Of a stretch of 35,128 nucleotides of DNA, positions 5,067 to 24,302 are shown in pieces. The DNA is from an uncultured Candidatus Nitrosopumilus sp. (lineage in GTDB: Archaea > Thermoproteota > Nitrososphaeria > Nitrososphaerales > Nitrosopumilaceae): assembly GCA_905479565.1 (NCBI GenBank), contig CAJQMY010000040.1, forward strand, positions 1 through 35,128, read 5' to 3'. Within the stretch, counting starts at the first letter, position 1; each line of letters begins with the position of its first letter. The notes beneath the pieces were generated by a model, which was given only the letters and a program-made list of their open reading frames with translations, was not told where the DNA came from and did not search any database. The position numbers and the translations under genes were made by a program.

Positions 5067-5630
5067 ATGGATGAGACCCCATTAGTTCATGGAGAATTAA
5101 TTTTAGATCAAACATGTATTTCAGAAAAGGATATGATTCACGAATTACAATTAAAAGGATTTGGTGAAATTGAAAAAAAAAATTTATTTTTAAAATCCTT
5201 TGAAACCCTTTACTTACTGTATTCAAAAAGATTGATTTTAAAAAAGAACAAAAAACAAATTGATTTTGATATTTTTATGAGTGTTTGTCAAAAAACTGAT
5301 TCTGAAATTCTTACAAAATTTTTGGTTTATCGTGATCTTCGGAATAGAGGGTATGTTGTCAAAGATGGATTTGGATTTGGTTCTGATTTTAGAGTATATG
5401 AGAGAGGTCATTATGGTGAAAAGGGAGCAAAATTCCTAATCTTTGGATTCAATGAAGGCCAGCAAGAAAAAATGGGTAACCTGCAAAAAAAGATTGAAGA
5501 AATTACTCAAATGGGAAAGGAGCCTATTATTGCAGTAATTGAACGTCGTGGTGAAATAATTTACTACAAAATCAATAAAATGGATTTTTATAAAAACAAA
5601 TCAAGATTTGAAGAACCATTTGATCCCTAG
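5067..5630 (+). CDS. endA: tRNA-intron endonuclease family protein
   Basis: The 187-residue protein resembles archaeal tRNA-splicing endonucleases, which cut the bulge-helix-bulge at intron borders in pre-tRNA. The N-terminal domain (1-80) is followed by the catalytic fold: FLVYRDLRNRGYVVKDGFGFG, then SDFRVYERG with the expected catalytic Tyr at 111, and a closing EPIIAVIERRGEIIYYKI strand pair with Lys151 as the likely catalytic Lys. The expected His of the H-x-K-Y-L-V motif is Gly120 here (GAKFLIF); the nearest His is His115. It could be a catalytic subunit using a shifted His or the structural subunit of a heterotetramer. It overlaps the convergent PLD-like gene by 4 bases. Confidence 0.8.
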   Translation: MDETPLVHGELILDQTCISEKDMIHELQLKGFGEIEKKNLFLKSFETLYLLYSKRLILKKNKKQIDFDIFMSVCQKTDSEILTKFLVYRDLRNRGYVVKDGFGFGSDFRVYERGHYGEKGAKFLIFGFNEGQQEKMGNLQKKIEEITQMGKEPIIAVIERRGEIIYYKINKMDFYKNKSRFEEPFDP

Positions 5631-8813: not shown

Positions 8814-9698
8814 ATGGAAATCAAAAAATTCATTGAAGAGAATAAATTATCTGAGTTTCCAATTGGCCTGGGCGGATGTAGAACTTCTGATTCATCTTTT
8901 GATTCATGTGATTATGATCTTTTTATTTTTGATGGACAACCAGACCCTGCAAAAATAATCCAATGTGGATGCGAATTTGTAACTATTCATCACGCGTCTT
9001 TGTCTGAAACAAATTCTGAAAAACTACTCCAGTATAATCAAATGGAAATTCTTCAAGACGAATCTTGGGATCTTAGAATGATGCTTTCTAAGATTGAAGA
9101 AAAACAGACATCATTATTTTTTAATTTTACAAAAAATTGTCTAATTGAGTCCAAATTTTGTTGTCAAAAAACAAGGGAATCTATAGAATCTTCTGATGTG
9201 TTTGCATCTTGTTGGCAAAAATGTGCAAGTTATTACCTGGCAAATGCTATTTTTTCAATTAATCATCAACGTTTGAGTTCTTCGCATATGCTTGATCAAC
9301 TTCGAAAATTAAAGAAAAGCTCAATTAATGAGTATATCTCTGTTGTAACTCAAACAGTTGGGATTGAACGAGCAACTCCAACATTACTTGAGAGAACGTT
9401 GAAATCAACAATAGGTTTTTCTGATTTAGTAGAAAAAAATAATCATTCTCAAATTATTCAAGCAAAATATGATTTTTTTGTAAAAAATTCAATGCTTTCT
9501 GATTGCTATTTTTATTTAGGATACATAAACAAAGAAAATTTTATAAAAATTAAAGATACCTTAAATCAAGAACAAGATTTGATACATATTCTAAAAGTTG
9601 CGTTTGATATCGAGGCTGATTCTAATATCCTTGAACAGCAATCAGTTCTTGTGCAAAAATCTTGTAATGAGATACTTGGAATTATTTTAAGTGCGTAG
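8814..9698 (+). CDS. Nucleotidyltransferase-like hypothetical protein
   Basis: The 294-residue protein carries near its start a pattern like the Pol-beta nucleotidyltransferase fold: Gly20-Gly21, then Asp33-x-Asp35 on a hydrophobic strand (CDYDLFIFD). The third acidic residue was not located, so activity is uncertain. The rest is helical, with a segment SDVFASCWQKCASYYLANAIF near residue 125-145 typical of helical regions following NTase domains. Eleven or so Cys are spread along the chain. ATG 8814 has CTTTATAG about 24-31 bases upstream. It could be a kanamycin-NTase-like or regulatory NTase relative; substrate unknown. Confidence 0.7.
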   Translation: MEIKKFIEENKLSEFPIGLGGCRTSDSSFDSCDYDLFIFDGQPDPAKIIQCGCEFVTIHHASLSETNSEKLLQYNQMEILQDESWDLRMMLSKIEEKQTSLFFNFTKNCLIESKFCCQKTRESIESSDVFASCWQKCASYYLANAIFSINHQRLSSSHMLDQLRKLKKSSINEYISVVTQTVGIERATPTLLERTLKSTIGFSDLVEKNNHSQIIQAKYDFFVKNSMLSDCYFYLGYINKENFIKIKDTLNQEQDLIHILKVAFDIEADSNILEQQSVLVQKSCNEILGIILSA

Positions 9699-9720
9699 TA
9701 TTCTGTTTGTATGTACTAAC

Positions 9721-9729
9721 CTTTTAAAA
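9721..9729 (+). promoter_or_regulatory. TATA element for the Cys-rich protein gene
   Basis: CTTTTAAAA lies 22-30 bases before ATG 9751, the local leaderless spacing, supporting expression of the short Cys-rich ORF. Confidence 0.55.
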
Positions 9730-9750
9730 TAAGTAAATTATTGAATTACC

Positions 9751-9894
9751 ATGGTAGATCAAGCATGTGGATGCGAAGCTGATAGCGGCGATCCAGATTA
9801 CTCCTGCGATTGTGCAATGCAAGGTCATTGTATATGCAGTGCTGATTGCAAATGTGGTACAGACGTTTGTAAAGAAGCAGTTAACCAAATGTAA
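9751..9894 (+). CDS. Metallothionein-like Cys-rich protein, 47 residues
   Basis: The product has nine Cys in 47 residues, arranged as C-x-C pairs at 6/8, 19/21, 27/29 and 33/35, plus Cys40 and one His (His26). It has no aromatic core beyond one Tyr. Spaced C-x-C pairs with Lys and Asp between them are the hallmark of metallothioneins, which bind clusters of Zn, Cu or Cd with thiolates in the cytoplasm. It has its own promoter and a T-rich terminator downstream, so it looks like a real single-gene unit. Members of known metallothionein families were not compared. A small Fe-S or copper-handling protein is the alternative. Confidence 0.75.
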   Translation: MVDQACGCEADSGDPDYSCDCAMQGHCICSADCKCGTDVCKEAVNQM

Positions 9895-9915
9895 TTGGAT
9901 AAGTTCCAATACTAA

Positions 9916-9928
9916 TTTTTTATTTTTT
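9916..9928 (+). terminator. T-rich terminator after the Cys-rich gene
   Basis: TTTTTATTTTTT follows the stop codon by about 20 bases, in the gap before the convergent small gene. Archaeal termination commonly uses such T-runs. Confidence 0.45.
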
Positions 9929-9930
9929 AA

Positions 9931-10098
9931 TTAATCGTCTTCATCCTCGTAGCCCCATGATTTTACTAATTCTTTTTGGAACTTGTCAGATTGTTTTTCA
10001 TCTAGTGCAAATCCACAGTTCTTATGAGTAGGTACTACGGTCATACCATCTAGTTTGAATTCGACCTCAAACAAGTGAACTTTAGAACATTCGCACAT
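9931..10098 (-). CDS. Small Cys/His protein, 55 residues
   Basis: The ORF starts at ATG 10098 (MCECSKVHLF) and ends with an acidic tail (GYEDEDD). Cys2, Cys4 and His8 near the start and His25 and Cys28 in THKNC give a plausible metal site, C-x-C-x3-H...H-x2-C. The middle reads as a beta hairpin (LFEVEFKLDGMTVVPT), followed by a helix (DKFQKELVKSW). A TATA-like AAATATA ends 27 bases upstream of ATG. The frame is open about 23 codons further upstream but without an ATG. Function unknown. Confidence 0.6.
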   Translation of the reverse strand: MCECSKVHLFEVEFKLDGMTVVPTHKNCGFALDEKQSDKFQKELVKSWGYEDEDD

Positions 10099-23315: not shown

Positions 23316-24302
23316 ATGTTAGAGATAGCAATAGGCGCAATCATTGTAGCATTAATCTTTGATTTTGTAAATGGATTTAATGATTCTGCAAATTCTGTTG
23401 CTACTGTAATTGGAACTCGTGTTCTAAAACCAATTCATGCTGTGGGTTTGTCTGCAGCAATGAATTTCATTGGTCCCTTTGTTTTTGGCGTTGCAGTAGC
23501 AACTACAATCGCAAAAGGAATTGTAAGTCCTGATGACATTACAGTATACATGATTGTTGGTGGATTGGCAGGAGCAATTGGTTGGAGTACTCTTTGTACT
23601 TATTTTGGATTACCAATTTCAAACAGTCATTCTTTAGTTGGAGGAATAATGGGTGCAGGCATTGCAGGATTAGGATTTGAAAAATTAGTTTATGGTGGAT
23701 TGACTAAAGTCTTTGCAGGAATTGTTATTGCTCCAGTTGGGGGAATAATATTTGGTCTTTTGCTAACTACTTTGATCATTACGATATTTGCAAGTCGTAG
23801 ACCTGGATCTGTCAACAAAACATTTGGTAAATTACAAATAATTTCTTCAGCATGGTTTGCCTTAACTCACGGAGCAAATGATGGACAAAAAACAATGGGC
23901 ATTATAGTTCTAATTTTATTCTCGGCAGGAATGATTCCTGACCTTGAGATGCCATTATGGGTAATTTTTGCTGCAGCAACTGCTATGGGCTTGGGTACTT
24001 TCTTTGGAGGATACAAAGTTATCAAAACTCTGGGTGTAAAAATCACTAAACTCAAACCATATCAAGGATTTGCAGCAGAAACTGGAGGTGGCTTGATGCT
24101 TGCAGTATTTGCAATATTTGGTATTCCTGCCAGTACTACCCACGCAATTACTGGAACTATCATGGGTTCAGGTGCTGCTCGAAGAAAACGTGCAGTGAGA
24201 TGGAAAGTTAGTAGACAAATTGTTTTTTCTTGGATTATAACTATTCCAGGTGCAGCAGTAATGGGAATTGGATTTACATATATGATTAACCTGTTTGTTT
24301 GA
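23316..24302 (+). CDS. pit: Inorganic phosphate transporter, PiT family
   Basis: The 328-residue membrane protein carries the two PiT signature repeats: FVNGFNDSANSVATVIGTRVL near the N-terminus (residues about 18-38) and LTHGANDGQKTMGII (about 183-197). Further family features are PISNSHSLVGGIMGAG and the mirrored PASTTHAITGTIMGSGAA. It imports phosphate (as metal-phosphate or with H+/Na+) through about 9-10 helices. The length suits a single-unit archaeal PiT. It is co-transcribed with the PhoU-like gene just upstream. Confidence 0.93.
   Translation: MLEIAIGAIIVALIFDFVNGFNDSANSVATVIGTRVLKPIHAVGLSAAMNFIGPFVFGVAVATTIAKGIVSPDDITVYMIVGGLAGAIGWSTLCTYFGLPISNSHSLVGGIMGAGIAGLGFEKLVYGGLTKVFAGIVIAPVGGIIFGLLLTTLIITIFASRRPGSVNKTFGKLQIISSAWFALTHGANDGQKTMGIIVLILFSAGMIPDLEMPLWVIFAAATAMGLGTFFGGYKVIKTLGVKITKLKPYQGFAAETGGGLMLAVFAIFGIPASTTHAITGTIMGSGAARRKRAVRWKVSRQIVFSWIITIPGAAVMGIGFTYMINLFV

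Follow-up and report, generated by a model that had tools for sequence, protein, structure and literature searches.

The fungal Cu-thioneins (MT family 8; e.g., the Neurospora crassa MT, PDB 1T2Y) carry their Cys residues in a box, [CXC]-X5-[CXC]-X3-[CXC]-X2-C, with Cu5 bound per 7-Cys box (PMC4755600), and the nine-Cys beta domain of human MT1A holds either Zn3 or Cu6 (PMC9846682). Among the bacterial proteins, SmtA is generally known for its zinc-finger fold with His ligands, and the mycobacterial MymT is a Cu(I)-binding protein encoded by a short ORF that annotation had missed (PMC7558416). Nine Cys residues with C-x-C pairs are likewise found in the Tesmin/TSO1 CXC and pre-SET Zn3Cys9 modules, where a three-metal cluster is possible. 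Ammonia oxidizers of the Nitrosopumilaceae type are abundant in marine and freshwater environments and rely on copper enzymes. Ammonia-oxidizing archaea are copper-dependent and sensitive to copper availability (PMC6976641); in the open-access literature that we searched, no metallothionein has been described for them.

The window analyzed here is a stretch of 35,128 nucleotides from an uncultured Candidatus Nitrosopumilus sp. On its forward strand, positions 9751–9894, stop codon included, encode a metallothionein-like protein of 47 aa and 4.9 kDa, MVDQACGCEADSGDPDYSCDCAMQGHCICSADCKCGTDVCKEAVNQM. The nine Cys residues (19%) at positions 6, 8, 19, 21, 27, 29, 33, 35 and 40 are separated by gaps of 1, 10, 1, 5, 1, 3, 1 and 4 residues, giving CxC-x10-CxC-x5-CxC-x3-CxC-x4-C, i.e., four C-x-C pairs and a lone Cys. 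An earlier note on this DNA had the ORF, its coordinates, its length and this arrangement of Cys residues right. The protein is strongly acidic (pI ~4) and contains one Tyr and one His, both of which vary among homologues. The metal-free AlphaFold model was poorly ordered (mean pLDDT 64.7); low order would be expected for a fold organized by metal, but it is not diagnostic.

The reading frame at 9751–9894 is a genuine gene, because its conservation, as seen in distribution, codon-position bias and dN/dS, settles the matter. In pairwise comparisons of 89 distinct free genes, 15562, 14189 and 54213 mismatches fell on codon positions 1, 2 and 3, and the median dN/dS was 0.077, indicating purifying selection. 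The possibility of a chance ORF was ruled out by this conservation and selection; an overlapping or antisense gene was set aside because substitutions cluster at the third positions of the 9751–9894 frame. No frame with nine Cys in 35 residues was obtained in 40 first-order shuffles of the window; the real window contains two, the gene itself and a frame at 23384–23530 (+). The latter is probably an overlapping-frame artefact.

When 300 genomes of the order were searched, the Cys module, counted in its free and fused forms together, was found in 128 of the 132 sampled genomes of the window's family. The matching genomes numbered 135, seven of them with weak hits in other families (E 0.0125–0.097) that were gone in a profile search; four genomes of the family gave no match. 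The profile search (E ≤ 0.01, free and fused forms again pooled) covered 398 genomes of the phylum: all 63 matching genomes belonged to the same family, no listed genome of that family lacked the module, and it was absent from the 335 others. A match on contig C27 of genome G241 (E = 0.0027) overlapped a stomatin-like gene but in a different reading frame, and was taken as chance. In a third collection the relatives bearing names were Nitrosopumilus, Nitrosopelagicus, Nitrosarchaeum, Nitrosotenuis, Cenarchaeum and Nitrosomarinus, and going by these names we take the family to be Nitrosopumilaceae. The module is thus a near-universal core gene of Nitrosopumilaceae, a point that the earlier note had missed.

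The nine Cys residues and their spacing were essentially invariant in 100 distinct modules, the sole variation being a first long gap of 9 or 10 residues and an extra Cys in one copy; a 25-row alignment likewise showed invariant Cys positions apart from the 9/10 difference in the first gap. Homologues lacking the Cys pairs had been named in advance as evidence against a metallothionein-like protein, and every pair is kept in the ~100 distinct modules. Outside the Cys residues, A5, G7 and D20 are invariant and D3, A10, M23 and Q24 are conserved in at least 90%, which is more than a simple metal sponge would need and suggests that the module presents a defined surface.

The gene order around the module is also conserved. 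A 294-aa protein of unknown function encoded upstream (8814–9698, +) is syntenic in 140 of 142 testable loci, a convergent gene for an acidic small protein of 55 aa (9931–10098, −) in 141 of 148 loci, and a 453-aa gene keeps its place near the module in 75 of 76 loci, all of these loci being drawn from overlapping fetches in which some genomes were counted more than once. The convergent 55-aa protein itself contains three Cys residues and has no family match. No metal genes adjoin the window gene.

Both the TATA and the terminator signals described in the earlier note were recovered, and with support from relatives. A BRE/TATA block, TGTACTAACCTTTTAAAA, spans 9712–9729 and, with an AAGTAA-like flank, forms a promoter element at 9712–9736 (+) that is conserved upstream of relatives. 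The TTTTAAA core begins 28–30 nt 5' of the ATG in 87 of the 87 type-A relatives having such a core, a distance that suggests leaderless transcription. Across 80 anchored upstream regions, almost all positions from TGTACTAACC through TTTTAAAA and AAGTA carried 1–2 bits of information. The full block, TRYACTAACCTTTTAAAA, has a single exact match in the window's genome. Being genome-unique and longer than a BRE/TATA element requires, the block at 9712–9736 may include a regulator site. Downstream, the stretch at 9895–9929 (+) is a likely terminator, in which a short inverted repeat, TTGGA...TCCAA (9895–9909), is followed by a T-rich tract (9916–9928); the T-rich tract was found in the downstream sequences of most relatives.

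The window protein is small (<10 kDa), Cys-rich and built on C-x-C motifs, and the Cys positions of its module are conserved, as in metallothioneins taken as a general, polyphyletic class. Membership in a known family was rejected: the window protein had no match up to E = 1 in Pfam or NCBIfam, and the module family had no significant match in Pfam, NCBIfam or, by sequence, the PDB. In Cys spacing the closest likeness is to the fungal Cu-thioneins, with which the module shares CxC-x5-CxC-x3-CxC, shortness and the dominance of C-x-C. However, its last seven Cys residues (CxC-x5-CxC-x3-CxC-x4-C) end in X4 where the fungal box ends in X2, so that six Cys fit the box and the last gap does not, and the module adds a CxC ten residues upstream and has acidic as well as Met/Gln residues that are conserved. 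The archaeal module and the fungal Cu-thioneins showed no homology at the sequence level. A simple random-gap model yields the 5,3 gap pair in ~2% of arrangements, and on this ground the match is treated as a resemblance, not as membership. Animal metallothioneins (PF00131, Metallothio) were weakly matched by 4 of 23 members (best E = 0.015, in one), under the Pfam cut-off. The mammalian beta domain in that family is likewise rich in C-x-C with nine Cys residues, whereas the module is single-domain, differs in the gaps outside the core and belongs to another lineage. The bacterial SmtA/BmtA and the mycobacterial MymT are small, cytosolic, Cys-rich, metal-binding proteins, as the window protein would also be; the prokaryotic metallothionein family of Pfam (SmtA type) matched neither the window protein nor the other members searched.

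The same Cys module recurs in the window's genome at the C-terminal end of a ~460-aa protein, where it forms a tail (G000:C13; L031:3238–4611); the earlier note had not noticed this copy. This protein has a signal-peptide-like start and one transmembrane helix, with flanking charges of +1 after and −3 before it, and its only Cys residues are the nine in the tail; taken together, these features indicate that the tail is probably cytoplasmic. The ectodomain was confidently predicted (pLDDT >90 over most of the first 180 residues), and a fold search of the PDB gave no match for it at E ≤ 0.001. Tail-less homologues occur in other genera (g22, g25, g26, g28 and g29) and often end in RGSMPKGWKPE or similar.

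Two types of the module were distinguished, A (DQACGCEADSGDPDY) and B (DAACGCAAS). The free gene is of type A, as in the window, or of type B at one syntenic site, depending on the genome, and the tail is mostly of type B; in nine records the tail is of type A, with the ATG of the free gene kept in frame, and L061–L068 are loci from several genomes with such tails. In two genomes the tail DNA was nearest to the free gene of the same genome (G316, 98.3%, next 90.6%; G234, 95.7%, next 91.5%), which looks like gene conversion between the tail and the free gene.

A second nine-Cys family, A2, is distributed patchily in the same archaeal family. Its proteins are 35–38 aa long with the spacing CxC-x5/6-C-x4-CxC-x5-CxC-x3-CxC, and they are encoded at L226:6122–6238, at L219:1632–1748 and 5193–5366, and at L217, L218 and L220–L225. 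In G034 and G112, which represent two species, A2 lies between a DsbD-like membrane protein and a P-type ATPase with two HMA domains, which is of the copper type; in G268 it adjoins a NicO-type nickel transporter. The hhalign probability between A2 and the window family was 94%, although a high Cys content can by itself inflate a value of this kind. A2 had no significant match in the libraries searched; its comparison with mouse MT-1 (1dft) gave E = 7.6. The tail copy with its apparent gene conversion, the A2 family and the near-fungal spacing of seven Cys residues are new here.

A search for the P-type ATPase domain (PF00122) found none in the window's genome. Of the 23 genomes sampled from its genus, 19 likewise gave no P-type ATPase, and at least 13 of 14 control genomes from other families have one. 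When more genomes were included, two genera of the window's family, g22 and g28, proved to carry both the module and P-type ATPases; a strict anticorrelation is unsupported across the family, and the module is therefore not simply a replacement for the P-type ATPase. A copper role of the module draws indirect support from the near-fungal spacing, the position of A2 beside a copper-type P-type ATPase and a host in which no P-type ATPase was found.

The best explanation, to which we assign a probability of about 0.62, is a metallothionein-like metal-thiolate protein confined to a single family of ammonia-oxidizing archaea. The nine thiolates would wrap a single metal-thiolate cluster, which, by analogy with other nine-Cys domains, would hold ~6 ions if the metal is Cu(I) and three if it is divalent. 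The free 47-aa protein would act as a cytosolic metal buffer or carrier, and the tail copy would hold such a site against the membrane on its inner side. Cu(I) is probably the metal, because the cells depend on copper enzymes and the genome shows no P-type (copper-exporting) ATPase; zinc is possible. The acidity of the window protein, unlike a DNA-binding CXC domain, favors this reading. Against it stand the lack of a significant match to a metallothionein family, the conserved non-Cys residues, the lack of adjoining metal genes, the inconsistent absence of P-type ATPases across the family and the ~2% chance frequency of the 5,3 gap pair. Mature eukaryotic-style metallothioneins usually lack aromatic residues, and the Tyr and the His of the window protein may also count against it. 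The earlier note's proposal of a metallothionein-like copper buffer is partly upheld: metallothionein-like is the best reading and the Cys pairs are kept, and its copper and its buffering, like metal binding and the topology of the tail, are predictions from sequence.

The main rival, which we regard as rather unlikely, is that the module is a structural Zn3Cys9 unit of the kind seen in Tesmin/TSO1 CXC or pre-SET domains. It would then act as an adaptor for protein interactions, and the free protein would compete with or regulate the tail of the membrane protein. Nine Cys residues suit three divalent ions, the module contains invariant non-Cys residues, and a shared partner would suit both its presence in two proteins, one free and one in the membrane, and the gene conversion between them. 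The A2 spacing CxC-x5-C-x4-CxC, which we take to resemble the pre-SET pattern, would count in the same direction. One A2 member matches PF03638 (Tesmin/TSO1 CXC) at E = 0.02; however, this is below the Pfam cut-off, far from significant and outside the window family, in which PF03638 found no match. In addition, the window family is acidic and not found in a chromatin protein. The window protein is strongly acidic and has none of the fold surroundings in which a CXC domain sits, and AlphaFold gave no confident fold, though for a metal-free model.

If the protein is metallothionein-like, the metal might instead be zinc, with the protein a store of Zn or Cd, which we consider quite unlikely. A nine-Cys beta domain takes Zn3 as well as Cu6 (PMC9846682), and the A2 relative adjoining a nickel-type transporter indicates that the metal context is not copper alone. 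Still, the spacing is nearest to that of the fungal Cu-thioneins (PMC4755600), the hosts are copper-dependent (PMC6976641) and A2 stands beside a copper-type P-type ATPase in two species. A thiol redox or persulfide/ROS buffer, whose C-x-C pairs would cycle between thiol and disulfide instead of holding metal, is very improbable. C-x-C pairs can form disulfides and metallothioneins are also credited with oxidative-stress defence (PMC7558416), but such a buffer needs neither an odd ninth Cys nor a fixed spacing, and no gene for a thioredoxin-like partner is syntenic with the window locus.

For the metallothionein-like protein, a further and doubtful step is to suppose that the module passes back and forth between the free protein in the cytosol and the exported single-pass membrane protein, whose cytoplasmic tail it forms. 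One metal-thiolate site would then have two uses, as a buffer in solution and, anchored in the membrane, as a metal relay or sensor for the supply of copper to copper enzymes that face the outside. A membrane-anchored metallothionein module that exchanges with a free copy would, if true, be an unusual architecture. In the Nitrosopumilaceae, a near-universal Cys-rich gene with a family-wide promoter is a concrete and easily tested candidate for intracellular copper handling.
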